A stretch of DNA of 49,778 nucleotides, taken from contig JAFVVQ010000023.1 of NCBI GenBank assembly GCA_017502085.1, positions 1-49,778 of the forward strand. Reading direction: 5' to 3'. The stretch is from Clostridia bacterium. Its GTDB lineage: Bacteria > Bacillota > Clostridia > Oscillospirales > Acutalibacteraceae. Position 1 is the stretch's first letter, and each line of letters opens with the position of its first letter. A program made the translations under genes and the position numbers. The notes under the pieces were generated by a model. It was not told where the DNA came from. It saw only the letters and a list, made by a program, of their open reading frames with translations, and did not search any database. Below are positions 27,072 to 31,645 of this stretch, in pieces.

Positions 27072-27935
27072 TTGAGTACGGTTATCTATGCTGATATTCT
27101 TATTGCGGTAAATATGATAATGAATTATTTCCTGCTTCGGGCAAGTGCGGCGGTAACGGGATCGGATAGTAAAACGTTCAGGATTTTTCTTTCCGCATTT
27201 GCGGGAGGCGTTTTTTCTCTGATAATTTTCATTGAAGGCATACCTGCCGTTCTTGACGGAATAATCAGACTCGTCTTTCTTGCCGTGATGGTGATAATTG
27301 CGTTCGGCGCGGGGAATGTCAATACGTTTTTAAAAAACTGCGCCTCTTTTTTTATATCAAATTTTGTTTTTGCGGGCATAATGTTTGCTGTCTGCACCTT
27401 CGTTGCACCGGGAAAAGCGATGTATAAAAACGGAGTTGTTTATTTTGATATAAATATCGTAACACTTACCGTTTCTTCATTTGCGTGCTACGGAATACTG
27501 TCTCTCCTGACGAGACTTTCGAGAAAAAGAACACCCCATTGCAGCACGTATACTCTGACAGTTACATACAATGGCAAAACCGCTTCATGCAAGGCACTTT
27601 ACGATACGGGAAACACGCTTCGGGACAGTTTTTCGGGCAGACCCGTAATCGTTGTTTCGGAGAAATTTGCCAGTGAAATTACGGCACCGCAAACTGAAAT
27701 ATCATCGCAGAAAAGCTACCGGATGATACCGTATTCAACAATAGGAAAAGGCGGAGTTTTACCGGCATTTCTGTCGGAAAAAATAACACTTGAAAGTCCG
27801 TCTCAGCAGGTGTCGGCGAAAAATATTTATATTGCCGTTACCGAAAAAAAGCTGTTTTCCGACAGCTTCGGTGCGCTGATAGGCACACCTGTTTTTGAGG
27901 CGGCTGACAACGAAACCGTAACCGTAAGGAGTTGA
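27072..27935 (+). CDS. spoIIGA: Sigma-E processing peptidase SpoIIGA
   Basis: 287 residues. Five hydrophobic helices fill about residues 1-155, starting with [19 protein letters not shown], the typical SpoIIGA opening. The C-terminal cytosolic aspartic-protease-like domain has [19 protein letters not shown] with catalytic Asp178. SpoIIGA cleaves pro-sigma-E at the mother-cell side of the septum during sporulation. A TTG start at 27072 is chosen: GGGGGAT lies just before and the product then matches the family's length and N-terminus. It is followed after only 4 nt by sigE, the classical spoIIG operon. Confidence 0.92.
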
Positions 27936-27939
27936 TGAT

Positions 27940-28632
27940 ATGCTGGAAAAAATCAAAAGAATCATAGCATCGGTCAAGGCGAGAATTTTCGGTGTGGAGG
28001 TCGATTATATTAACGGCCCCGAAACCCTTCCGCCGCCGCTGACAAAGGAAGAGGAAAATATCTGCCTCGAGAAATTCGAGCAGGGAGATAAAGATGCAAG
28101 AGAAGAGCTTATAGTCAGAAATCTGCGGCTTGTCGTATATATTGCACGTAAGTTTGAAAATACGGGAATTCCCGTTGAAGACCTGATTTCAATCGGCACT
28201 CTCGGTCTGATAAAAGCGATCAATACTTTCAGAATTTCCAAAAACATAAAGCTCGCAACCTATGCTTCCCGATGCATTGAAAATGAGATTCTGATGTATC
28301 TGCGCAAAACAAATCCGATGAAAGCTGAAGTGTCATATTTCGAGCCGCTCAACGTTGATTGGGACGGCAACGAGCTTTTGCTTTCGGATATACTCGGCAG
28401 TGAGCCGGACGAGGTTTACCGTGATATGGAATCCGAGGATGAAAGAAGCCGTCTTTATAAAGCGGTTGAGTCTCTGAATAAGAGGGAAAGGCAGATTATG
28501 ACGATGCGGTTCGGCATCGGAGGAGGTCGGGAATTCACGCAGAAAGAGGTTGCCGATATGCTCGGTATATCACAAAGCTATATTTCCAGACTCGAAAAAA
28601 GAATAATTGAAAAAATCAAAAAAGAAATATGA
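27940..28632 (+). CDS. sigE: Sporulation sigma factor sigma-E
   Basis: 230 residues. A short basic, hydrophobic N-terminal pro-sequence is followed by the strongly conserved [10 protein letters not shown], region 2 ([33 protein letters not shown] and [17 protein letters not shown]) and region 4 ([10 protein letters not shown], then [23 protein letters not shown]). It is the early mother-cell sigma factor, made inactive and processed by SpoIIGA. ATG follows AAGGAG in the end of spoIIGA. The often-linked sigG is not downstream here; a different sigma-like fusion gene lies there instead. Confidence 0.96.
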
Positions 28633-28706: not shown

Positions 28707-28735
28707 TTGACAGTTTACAAAATATAGTATATAAT
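28707..28735 (+). promoter_or_regulatory. Perfect-consensus sigma-A promoter for the sigma/WG/SH3 fusion gene
   Basis: TTGACA at 28707-28712, 17-bp spacer, TATAAT at 28730-28735. This is an exact consensus in both hexamers and spacer, so strong housekeeping transcription is expected, independent of the sporulation genes upstream. The rest of the 28633-28814 gap shows no other element. Confidence 0.88.
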
Positions 28736-28814
28736 TGATTACAATTGTAATAAATTTTGTCAAACGGCAATTTTTCGTACTTTTAATAATAACCGATTGG
28801 AGTGGAATATTAAA

Positions 28815-31370
28815 GTGAGCGAGAATTTGATACAGTACGTTATCGATGCGGGCAAAGGCGATACAGCTGCTATGGGTATGCTCTATGCCAAAACTCTCAA
28901 GGCATCATTTTTCCTTGCATCGAAGCTCAGCGGAAGCGAAACTCAGGCGGCCGAAATAATCAAGAAGGCTTATGCCCGTGCTTTTTGTTCAATCGAAAAA
29001 CTCAAGAAGCCCGAGGCATTCGAAATCTGGCTTAAGCAGATTATCGCATCTATCTATAAAGATGGTGCGAGATTCATTTTTGCCGATGCAGATGCCAATG
29101 CTCAGGAGCTTTCAGCTGATTTTCTGCCCGAATCCGTTCTTGCAAGTGAAGAACTTGTTGCCAAGGTTTCTCAGGCTGTTTCTCAGCTTTCACCCGAACG
29201 CAGAACGGCAGTAATTCTTTTCTACAATAACGGTATGCCCGTGAACGTTCTTTCAAGATTCCTCGGCGTATCGGACAGCACAGCAAATGCTATTCTCGGC
29301 AAAGCAAAGGCAGATATTCTTGCCAATGCCGGTGTTGAAGCTCCCGAGATTCCTGAGGTTGCAAGTCTTCCCGTACTTACAAGGGTTTTCAAAGAACTCA
29401 CAGATAAAACGGTTGTTGACGGTGCACTTGTAAGAGAAGTTTTCACTTTTGCCATAGAAGCATATGCTGCGGCAAAGCCCAAAGCAGAGGAGACAGCGGA
29501 TGAAACTGCAGAAGAGGTTGCCGAAGAAAAGGCGGAAGAAACTGTCGAAGAGACAACCGAAACCGCCGTTGAAAAAACCGAAGATGAAACGGCAGCCGAA
29601 GAAACTGCGGAAGAAGATCAGACGGAAACCGATGAATCCGAAGAAGCGGAAGAAGTTCCTGCAGAAGAAACTGTTGTTGAAACAGAAGAGGAAGAAGCTT
29701 CCGAAGAGGTTGTTGAAGAAGCAACCGAAGAAGTATCTGAAGAAGCAGAACCTGAAAAAGCCATTGAAGAAGTAATCGACGAAGAAAAAGCTGAGATGGA
29801 AGAAAGTATTCTTTCATTCCGAAATAAAATCAGCAGTATGCTTGGTACTGAGGCAGAGGAAAAGACCGCAGATGCCGAAACAGAGACTGATACATCCGAA
29901 GCGGAAGTTGAAGAAACTCCCGCATCCGAGGAAACTTCCGAGACGGCTGAAGAAGAAACGCCTGTCGCTGCAGACGAAGAAATTTCCGAAGAAACCAAAG
30001 TTGACGATTGGCATATTGAAATCAAAGACGATACCGTTGATGACGATGCGTTCGAGAGAATCAGACGCAGTGTTCCGGGTCTCGATGAAATCAAACAGTC
30101 GGTCGAAGAAGAGTATACGGTTGAAGAAACCCCCGAAGAGGAAACAGTTCCTGTACCCGTGACGGAGACTGTTCCCGTAACAGAAACCGAAGAAAAACCG
30201 AAGCTTACAAATAATCCTTCCATAAAGTTTAAGAAGAAACGCGAAAAGATAACCGCAAAGGTCAATATCAAGGTTATCATTGCGGCAATCGCAGTTCTTG
30301 CGGTTGTTATCGTTGCGGTTGTTCTTCTTGTCAGCGGCGGCAAAAAAGACGATAACACAACTACAACAACTCCCGTTGCAGATACCCTCAGAGTGCCCGT
30401 TGAATTCAACGTGATTCCCGCACTTGAAGATTATAAAGATATTGAGTTCCTCAACGAAAAGTTCAGCAGTTTCAAGGATCCCGATACCCGCAAATACGGT
30501 CTTATCGATTATCAGGGCAACGTCGTGCTTTCTCCCGAATATGACGGATTCAGACGTTGCAGTAGCGGCAGATATTACGGCGAAGGCAGTCTTGCCGATT
30601 CAGGCTATCATATTCTCGCAGTCAAAGGCGATGCAGAGTATGAAGTTGTTATGATGGGCGAAACGGCTATCGTATCCAATATTGCTCACGCTGACCACGC
30701 AACAAGCAACAACACAAGTATGAGCGGCGGCGATTACGATGAAAGAGACCGCTATTACGAAGGCTATGCGGCTGTCCGTAAGAACGGCAAATGGGGTTAT
30801 GTTGCCCAGAACAGCGGCAAACTTGTTGTTCCTTACGAATTTGAAGCAGTGAACGATGTTCCTGCCGATGATCCCTCTGCGGCATATGACTACTGCCGAG
30901 GCTCATCAAACGGATATATTGCCGTCAAAAAAGGCGGTAAGATGGGCGTCATCAAAATCGAAAAGGATGCCTATAAGATTGTTGTTGATTTTACCTATGA
31001 TATGATTTGTCAGGGTAACGGCGGAACGTTCCTTGCTTATAACGGCAAGGATTGGGGAAGCCTCGAAATCGGAACACTTTCCGAGGTGACAACAAGCGGT
31101 TCAACGGCTGAAACGACAACACTGCCTCCCGCTGTGACAACTCCCGCCGAGGTTTCAATCGGCACGTTCGTTGTCAACGATGACGAAAGCAATATCAGAA
31201 CTTCACCCGATACCGATAAGGATGATAACATTATCACCGCACTCAACAAGGGATATAAGATTACTGCCTATGAAAAGAAAGAGGGCAGCAACGGTTCCGA
31301 ATGGGTAAGATTTGAATATGAAGGCAAGGAAGCCTGGATTTCATCCAAGAAGCTGGATAAGGCTGAATGA
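28815..31370 (+). CDS. Fusion: ECF-sigma-like domain, acidic linker, membrane helix, WG repeats, SH3-like domain
   Basis: 851 residues. Residues 1-75 resemble sigma region 2 (ETQAAEIIKKAYARAFCSIEKL, EIWLKQIIASIY), but the usual ARN..D.IR DNA-contact block is degenerate; residues about 125-170 match sigma region 4 (LSPERRTAVILFYNNGMPVNVLSRFLGVSDSTANAILGKAK). Residues about 222-480 are a Glu/Thr/Ala-rich acidic linker. One membrane helix spans about 487-509. Outside follow three WG-type repeats (KYGLIDYQGNVVLSP, KWGYVAQNSGKLVVP, KMGVIKIEKDA), a Thr-rich spacer and an SH3-like domain with NIRTSPDTD (about 785-851). Start GTG 28815 follows GGAGTGG; the earlier TTG lies inside that site. Function is unknown; a membrane-tethered, sigma-derived sensor is the inference. 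Confidence 0.8.
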   Translation: MSENLIQYVIDAGKGDTAAMGMLYAKTLKASFFLASKLSGSETQAAEIIKKAYARAFCSIEKLKKPEAFEIWLKQIIASIYKDGARFIFADADANAQELSADFLPESVLASEELVAKVSQAVSQLSPERRTAVILFYNNGMPVNVLSRFLGVSDSTANAILGKAKADILANAGVEAPEIPEVASLPVLTRVFKELTDKTVVDGALVREVFTFAIEAYAAAKPKAEETADETAEEVAEEKAEETVEETTETAVEKTEDETAAEETAEEDQTETDESEEAEEVPAEETVVETEEEEASEEVVEEATEEVSEEAEPEKAIEEVIDEEKAEMEESILSFRNKISSMLGTEAEEKTADAETETDTSEAEVEETPASEETSETAEEETPVAADEEISEETKVDDWHIEIKDDTVDDDAFERIRRSVPGLDEIKQSVEEEYTVEETPEEETVPVPVTETVPVTETEEKPKLTNNPSIKFKKKREKITAKVNIKVIIAAIAVLAVVIVAVVLLVSGGKKDDNTTTTTPVADTLRVPVEFNVIPALEDYKDIEFLNEKFSSFKDPDTRKYGLIDYQGNVVLSPEYDGFRRCSSGRYYGEGSLADSGYHILAVKGDAEYEVVMMGETAIVSNIAHADHATSNNTSMSGGDYDERDRYYEGYAAVRKNGKWGYVAQNSGKLVVPYEFEAVNDVPADDPSAAYDYCRGSSNGYIAVKKGGKMGVIKIEKDAYKIVVDFTYDMICQGNGGTFLAYNGKDWGSLEIGTLSEVTTSGSTAETTTLPPAVTTPAEVSIGTFVVNDDESNIRTSPDTDKDDNIITALNKGYKITAYEKKEGSNGSEWVRFEYEGKEAWISSKKLDKAE

Positions 31371-31378
31371 TATATTGC

Positions 31379-31408
31379 TTGACAAACCGTAAGGTTTAGT
31401 AATATAAT
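31379..31408 (+). promoter_or_regulatory. Sigma-A promoter of alaS
   Basis: TTGACA at 31379-31384, 18-bp spacer, TATAAT at 31403-31408, placing the start of transcription just before the T-box leader. It begins only 9 nt after the upstream stop codon. Confidence 0.8.
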
Positions 31409-31419
31409 AAATCGAAATA

Positions 31420-31645
31420 AATAACGAAACTTTGACGAAGAAGAATTCCGTTACTGCTCCCAGAGAGACATCCGATTTGCTGAGACGGATGTTGAGTATC
31501 TGTGGCGGGAAGGCCGCTTCCGAGTTCCGCCGTGACGAACGGCGGCGTTACCCGCGTTAAAAGGAATGAGTGGTGCAGTTTGCGCAATTTGGGTGGTACC
31601 GCGGCATATGCCGTCCCATTGGGTTGTGAAACTGCACCTTTTTTC
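31420..31645 (+). promoter_or_regulatory. T-box leader of alaS
   Basis: The invariant T-box sequence GGGTGGTACCGCGG is at 31591-31604, inside an alternative antiterminator. The competing terminator pairs 31572-31581 with 31629-31638 (GGTGCAGTTT/AAACTGCACC) and ends in six T. Upstream, the AGAGAG motif (31461-31466) and a distal Stem I hairpin (ACATCCG...CGGATGT) are visible. Uncharged tRNA-Ala would stabilise the antiterminator and allow alaS expression. Candidate Ala codons (GCT, GCC) occur in Stem I, but I could not fix the specifier loop by eye. Confidence 0.93.

Follow-up and report, generated by a model that had tools for sequence, protein, structure and literature searches.

The window analysed here, positions 1 to 49,778 (49,778 nucleotides) of contig JAFVVQ010000023.1 from a Clostridia bacterium of the Acutalibacteraceae (assembly GCA_017502085.1), carries on its forward strand, to which all window coordinates below refer, a gene for an 851-residue protein that joins a sigma-factor-like half to a membrane helix and an exterior part. 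The open reading frame (ORF) spans 28797-31370; we place the gene at 28815..31370, from a GTG codon to the stop, and prefer this start to the alternative TTG at 28797 because the GTG and the GGAG upstream of it are largely conserved among orthologs. From the N-terminus, the chain runs through an extracytoplasmic function (ECF) sigma-like region (residues 1-172), a two-helix hairpin (187-220) and a linker to a single membrane helix, which is followed by WG repeats and then by a bacterial SH3 domain. Profile searches and the structural model agree with the domain map of an earlier note, made by a model from the sequence alone, which had proposed a sigma-like N-terminus, a single membrane helix, WG repeats and an SH3 domain. 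We favour, with about even confidence, the reading that this protein is a transmembrane pseudo-sigma: it would descend from an active membrane-fused ECF sigma factor and would now act as a sigma mimic under the control of an envelope sensor.

The sigma-like half comprises a sigma2-like domain (residues ~1-84; 28815..29066), a sigma4-like domain (residues ~112-172; 29148..29330) and, fused behind the latter, the conserved two-helix hairpin (29373..29474). When residues 1-222 were searched alone against Pfam, Sigma70_r4_2 matched above its cut-off (2.4e-6, 27.5 bits) and Sigma70_r2 fell below its own (0.0037, 17.5 bits; cut-off 24). The ECF models of NCBIfam cover residues 6-168: TIGR02954 gives an E-value of 9.7e-17, with 61 bits against a cut-off of 188.5, and the general ECF model TIGR02937 scores 45.5 bits on residues 1-222 against a cut-off of 42.9, but 41.0, slightly below it, on the whole protein. 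The AlphaFold2 model of residues 1-222, built from a 25-row alignment (A2), is confident, with a mean predicted local distance difference test (pLDDT) score of 91.6 and a predicted TM-score (pTM) of 0.88; its helices form sigma2 (3-84), sigma4 (112-172) and a confident hairpin (187-198 and 203-220), the sigma2 and sigma4 fold without sigma3 that is expected of an ECF factor. The top matches of the model in a Foldseek search of the Protein Data Bank (PDB) are ECF sigma factors. With the TM-score normalised to the target (TMt), SigW/RsiW reaches 0.71-0.73, CnrH/CnrY 0.65 and RpoE/NepR 0.64, whereas polymerase-bound ECFs reach 0.28-0.39, which suggests that the model resembles a closed form of the sigma-like half. 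The earlier note had been prepared to give up its proposal if the N-terminus resembled no sigma profile or fold, or if the fusion were missing from close relatives; the N-terminus matches both profiles and fold, and the fusion is present in 42 of the 45 genomes of the genus.

In those 45 genomes, the whole protein was found in one match in 23, both halves in one ORF in 16, and a split or cut version in three (two ORFs in G032, two contigs in G006, a contig end in G005). The three genomes without an ortholog (G017, G023 and G035) are 79, 63 and 86% complete, and all 15 genomes that are at least 90% complete carry one. We therefore reject a chance ORF, since orthologs occur in 42 of 45 genomes, and an assembly fusion, since a single ORF holds both halves in 39 of the 42. 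A scan of named genomes gave 42 loci, of which 40 are members of the family, all from uncultured organisms; where the title names a host (24 loci), it is a ruminant in 22 cases and a horse in two. Alignment A1 consists of the window protein and its counterparts from 23 of the 29 loci L007-L035 (L008, L009, L011, L022, L030 and L035 were excluded as split, partial, near-duplicate or unparsed).

Residues of the sigma-like half were compared between a family set (n=41, the 40 named loci and the window protein) and a canonical set of 37 ECF domains from long ORFs, chosen by phmmer with L099 (described below), mostly from the same genus and order, with the degenerate L112 removed; in 35 of the 37, a membrane segment is followed by 100 or more residues. 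In the numbering of the window protein, Gln50 is present in 36 of 37 canonical sequences and one of 41 family members, 36 of which have Lys instead, and an acidic residue occupies position 51 in 36 of 37 canonical sequences but in none of the 41, of which 31 have Lys there. Asn79 (34/37 canonical), Lys158 (36/37) and Arg160 (37/37) are absent from the entire family. A passage of PMC6411747 reports that, in sigma-H of Mycobacterium tuberculosis, alanine at W81 or I85 (severely) and also at N88 impairs transcription, and that the sigma residues touching the beta-prime coiled coil of the polymerase are conserved among sigma factors. By their equal spacing, positions 72, 76 and 79 would correspond to these three residues, and the −10 pocket that they form is not kept in the family: Trp72 is found in 34, Ile76 in five (30 of 37 in the canonical set) and Asn79 in none of the 41. 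Positions 50 and 51 presumably lie within the contact with the beta-prime coiled coil, and positions 158 and 160 are placed by the model on the DNA-recognition helix. The family thus lacks Gln50 with an acidic neighbour, as well as the Lys158 and Arg160 pair, that mark its ECF relatives. Sigma70_r2, which stays below the cut-off in the window protein, exceeds it in 28 of 28 scans of fused ECFs (27 genes).

These results uphold the suggestion of the earlier note that region 2 is degraded. Its companion claim, that region 4 is better kept, holds for the profile score but not for the recognition helix, from which Lys158 and Arg160 have gone too; with both residues missing from 41 of 41 family members, the promoter binding that the note had envisaged gains no support from region 4.

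The sigma-like part is under purifying selection. Its ratio of non-synonymous to synonymous substitution rates (Ka/Ks) lies between 0.04 and 0.14 in all of eight hand-chosen ortholog pairs. The WG part gives similar ratios (0.02-0.11), whereas the linker ratio of the same pair is higher (0.13-0.29 in the seven pairs where it is defined). All 41 family members share K64, F57, P186, V187 and F210, and 40 of them share C58; none of these residues is fixed in the canonical set. The low Ka/Ks and the family-fixed residues together argue that the sigma-like domain is under constraint for some function.

The ancestry of such a domain is best seen against the many fused sigma factors of these bacteria. 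The earlier note had regarded a sigma fusion held at the membrane as unusual, a view that the survey contradicts: of 21 sigma ORFs in 20 regions of the same genus, selected for their long ORFs, 20 (the degenerate L112 among them) carry a membrane segment with 100 or more residues beyond it, as do 14 of 18 strong rows from the order-level loci, all segments being called by a hydropathy threshold alone; IutY and ECF52/SCO4117, considered below, are published cases. Fused ECF sigmas with intact sigma domains are numerous in the genus, the order and the class. Pfam scans outside the genus covered 27 entries (L099, L122 and 25 more long sigma ORFs, L124 and L161 being one gene), with L003 as a 28th scan. 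Among the 27, sigma regions occur with WG repeats in L099, L122 and L162 and with SH3_3 in L165, and no second protein combining sigma, WG and SH3 was seen outside the genus among the matches listed and these scans, the searches of the order (295 genomes) and class (391 genomes) having taken at most the best three and two candidates per genome, respectively, which cannot prove absence.

L099 comes from a metagenome-assembled genome of the Clostridiaceae. Its 735 residues include sigma regions 2 and 4, both above cut-off, a membrane segment and WG repeats; Q50, D51, N79, K158 and R160 are all intact, and its average identity to the family is 47% in the WG region and 35% in the sigma part. L122 and L162 likewise combine ECF sigma regions with WG repeats in a single ORF, as the window protein does. 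Regions 2 and 4 are above cut-off in L099, L122 and L162, and a hydrophobic segment was seen in L099 and L122, the two checked. These three differ from the window protein in giving no SH3_3 match in the scans, and L099 and L122 stand in the canonical residue set. A quickly built tree with 51 rows, 13 of them from the family, places the family sequences in a single cluster (SH-aLRT 99) at a long branch, and L099 is one of the first rows on the opposite side; the root is not established, and descent of the pseudo-sigma from an active fused ECF would be the simplest story.

The exteriors of the fused ECFs vary, with BspA-type repeats (L129, L167), Big_2 (L130), DUF5640 with a lipocalin-like domain (L164), SH3_3 (L165) and WG repeats (L122, L162); the set as a whole (L101-L120, L122-L134, L161-L173 and L003) is seemingly little described for Clostridia. 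L003, most of L101-L120 and L123-L134, and L165 share with the window protein a sigma2-sigma4 part and an exodomain, most with a membrane segment, and differ from it in their other exteriors and mostly intact sigma residues. A second, different fused sigma-like protein, L112 (G011:C5, a minus-strand ORF of 932 residues), has I50, G51, K79, N158 and H160 and is perhaps an independent pseudo-sigma. At L100:3230-6285, a free ECF-like sigma gene overlaps an ORF with a large exterior-like part, so that similar parts occur there as separate genes, and L152, L153 and L154 represent another long ECF class (844-1010 residues) with a long C-terminus and no hydrophobic segment by the threshold used.

We infer from the residue comparison that the family has lost sigma activity. 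The protein probably signals by binding another protein instead of directly switching genes on, because related species keep the degenerate sigma part almost unchanged. In the mechanism that we suggest, the cytoplasmic half would keep the ECF sigma2-sigma4 fold, with the residues at the presumed RNA polymerase, −10 and −35 contacts lost and others fixed in their place, and would serve to bind a partner protein, to which it would present a surface like that of a sigma factor. The partner might most plausibly be an anti-sigma factor that controls one of the genuine ECF sigmas of the cell, and the hairpin 187-220 may set the availability of the sigma-like surface. Outside, the WG/SH3 part would sense the cell envelope, conceivably through a wall or envelope ligand, and act through the single membrane helix.

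A sensor-gated sigma mimic is favoured by analogy with PhyR of alphaproteobacteria, whose ECF-like domain, according to PMC4598750, mimics a sigma factor and binds an anti-sigma factor. The two proteins share a sigma-like fold (the PhyR structure 2lfw is among the fold matches, TMt 0.58), and the sigma-like half of the window protein has kept this fold and lost the hallmark residues, as judged from model and alignment; PhyR differs in having a receiver domain, which is absent from the Pfam matches listed for the window protein, where a membrane helix and WG/SH3 part are found instead. The hairpin may have a parallel in CnrH, in which, as the same source describes, sigma2 and sigma4 are held closed by two CnrY helices (PMC4598750). 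CnrH/CnrY and RpoE/NepR are among the better fold matches of the model (TMt 0.64-0.65). CnrY is a separate partner of CnrH, whereas the two-helix hairpin of the family lies in the same chain and could be a built-in version of the CnrY clamp. A fuller scheme, which we offer only tentatively, is a one-protein transmembrane relay in which the sensor gates a degenerate sigma clamped shut by its hairpin; on signal, the domain would sequester an anti-sigma factor and thereby free the real sigmas. That factor might be common to the many fused ECF sigmas of the cell, and the relay would have arisen when a membrane-fused ECF became a decoy.

Several observations weigh against a pseudo-sigma. No partner was found for the sigma-like half, and residues 1-222 still exceed the cut-offs of TIGR02937 and Sigma70_r4_2. 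Trp72 is retained in most of the family, and the window species is among the five members with Ile76. The canonical set was selected by similarity to L099 and hence favours sequences whose motifs are intact. A broader control, of 42 rows, is less clear-cut: among the 22 taken from other genomes, eight have Arg in place of Asn79, and of the 20 own-genome rows, non-ECF sigmas included, only nine have Arg160. This control includes the window gene as L039, which displaced the SigE row of the same locus, and L036 and L037 have no row. Its variation means that no single residue loss is diagnostic, only the combination, and the window gene is the sole row in which positions 50, 51, 79, 158 and 160 are all non-canonical. 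Position 50 we take to be equivalent to Q406 of Escherichia coli sigma-70, a core-binding residue, and its contact with polymerase, like the exact roles of 158 and 160, is assumed. Several Ks values among the ortholog pairs exceed 1. Finally, sigmas bound to RseA or MucA also score low (TMt 0.40-0.45), and the fold score gives no clean separation of bound and free forms.

The strongest competitor is a working membrane-tethered ECF sigma of altered promoter specificity that is freed by regulated proteolysis on a WG/SH3 signal. Such a life is known for IutY of Pseudomonas putida (ECF243), described in PMC5411451 as an ECF domain and a membrane-spanning regulatory part in one polypeptide, and has been proposed for SCO4117. 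The window protein likewise has an ECF-type domain and a membrane-spanning part in a single chain; IutY differs in that its sigma is active after Prc/RseP cleavage, whereas the window protein has lost its hallmark residues and has a WG/SH3 exterior. SCO4117 of Streptomyces coelicolor (ECF52) also combines an ECF domain, a membrane helix and a sensor-like exodomain in one chain, according to a passage of PMC5826349, and a review names ECF48 and ECF53 as further fused ECFs (PMC8999054). The window protein has the same three elements in one chain but not the zinc finger and carbohydrate-binding module of ECF52, a group described as exclusive to Actinobacteria whose sigma domain is treated as functional; the Pfam matches listed for the window protein with E up to 10 include no zinc-finger domain. 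Fold and sigma2-sigma4-membrane-sensor order match known tethered ECFs, and the reading is also favoured by TIGR02937 and Sigma70_r4_2 scores above cut-off on residues 1-222, by the many canonical fused cousins, three of them with WG repeats, and by the retention of Trp72. Against it stand the combined loss of Q50, acidic 51, N79, K158 and R160, the missing zinc-finger match, the conserved sigma-A-like promoter, and the lack of any conserved cleavage site, which the earlier note had proposed to look for near residues 480-515 and which we did not see by eye. Residues have been lost together wherever a sigma factor would presumably touch polymerase and the −10 and −35 elements, which leads us to prefer a sigma mimic, and we consider a tethered working sigma possible but doubtful.

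Alternatively, the protein could be a membrane-bound regulator associated with polymerase or DNA. Weak contacts with either would then be made by sigma4 or by the basic side of the helix region 50-64, so that the protein keeps transcription close to the envelope or competes with other sigmas. The above-cut-off sigma4 profile match (27.5 bits) and the basic residues K50 (36/41), K51 (31/41) and K64 (41/41) would fit such contacts. The loss of K158 and R160 does not, nor does the reversal of charge at positions 50-51, which are polar/acidic in the canonical set and basic in the family; the domain normally contacts the beta-prime coiled coil electrostatically (the location of 50-51 within that contact being our assumption), and we regard this alternative as improbable. 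About equally improbable is a relic, the sigma part being a decaying anchor of a protein that acts only through its exterior, like the sigma-less WG-SH3 paralogs found as separate ORFs in 40 of 45 genus genomes, for the sigma part has low Ka/Ks in eight of eight pairs, many invariant residues and a confident fold.

The linker that separates the sigma-like half from the membrane (residues 223-485; 29481..30269) is acidic in the window protein, with 263 residues, 38% aspartate plus glutamate and a net charge of −77, much as the earlier note had estimated (about 260 residues). Length and charge are not conserved in the orthologs, however, for the linker has 228 residues in L007, and the remaining 22 of the aligned orthologs show lengths of 73-148 residues and net charges between +1 and −36. 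With lengths of 73 to 263 residues, a conserved acidic linker is rejected; a motif like ILSFRNKI (332-339) is found in 12 of 24 orthologs. The membrane helix (core ~486-507; 30270..30335), placed by hydropathy and alignment, is the sole hydrophobic region in 20 of 24 aligned sequences at the same threshold, and its Lys/Arg-rich N-terminal flank points to an N-in/C-out topology.

Beyond the helix lies the putative sensor. The WG-repeat region (541-755; 30435..31079), predicted to be all-beta, matches WG_beta_rep (PF14903) in three stretches (7.7e-13, 48.7 bits, above cut-off), and the SH3_3 domain (PF08239; 783-851; 31161..31367) scores 1.8e-7 and 31.7 bits against a cut-off of 27. A PDB fold search with the WG/SH3 half gave weak matches alone (TMq ~0.2; AztD, BtuK1 and hemopexin among them), from which no ligand can be deduced, and a PDB sequence search gave matches confined to the SH3 end (five chains). 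The paralogous WG-SH3-type ORFs are mostly shorter; the example at L002:802-2163 has a short N-terminus, a hydrophobic segment, WG repeats and SH3_3.

A sigma-A-type promoter, TTGACA-17-TATAAT (28707..28735), matches the consensus at 12 of 12 positions, bearing out the earlier note, and the best site matches at 11 or 12 of 12 in 31 of 37 ortholog upstream regions (L092, L093 and L095 were excluded from the count); it would give steady expression. On the 5′ side, spoIIGA and a SigE-like sigma gene lie adjacent to each other at 27072-28632. This neighbourhood recurs in just nine of the 40 named loci, some of which have little upstream DNA, and an operon with sigE is rejected on that ground. On the 3′ side, a T-box leader (31423-31621) precedes alaS, which is found downstream in 33 of 40 loci, the remaining seven contigs stopping earlier, L074 within the leader. 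A second promoter-like site with exact hexamers and a spacer of 18 stands before the alaS T-box leader (window 31379-31621), and the contig end at L074:6860-7075 shows apparent repeated copies of the T-box terminator part ahead of alaS.

Searches of open-licence papers found no report of a degenerate but conserved sigma half with a WG/SH3 exterior, nothing on this family among the papers listed under WG repeats and none on ECF fusions in Clostridia; queries by phrase for membrane-bound, -tethered or -anchored sigma factors surfaced a single paper, on methanobactins, and none of the papers listed in a further search mentions Q406. Membrane-fused ECF-like proteins are a known kind; the variant described here, whose sigma half is degenerate yet conserved and whose exterior is of WG/SH3 type, is one that these searches did not find in print. 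Membrane-fused ECF sigmas themselves seem to be a common, little-described type of signalling protein in Clostridia, and L099, L122 and L162, with an intact sigma part and WG repeats, permit a direct comparison of active and crippled forms. If the pseudo-sigma reading is correct, this lineage would have converted a membrane-fused sigma into a membrane-bound imitation that almost all of its species retain, and sigma mimicry, of which PhyR is the only other example that we met, would extend to a single-protein transmembrane sensor in Clostridia.

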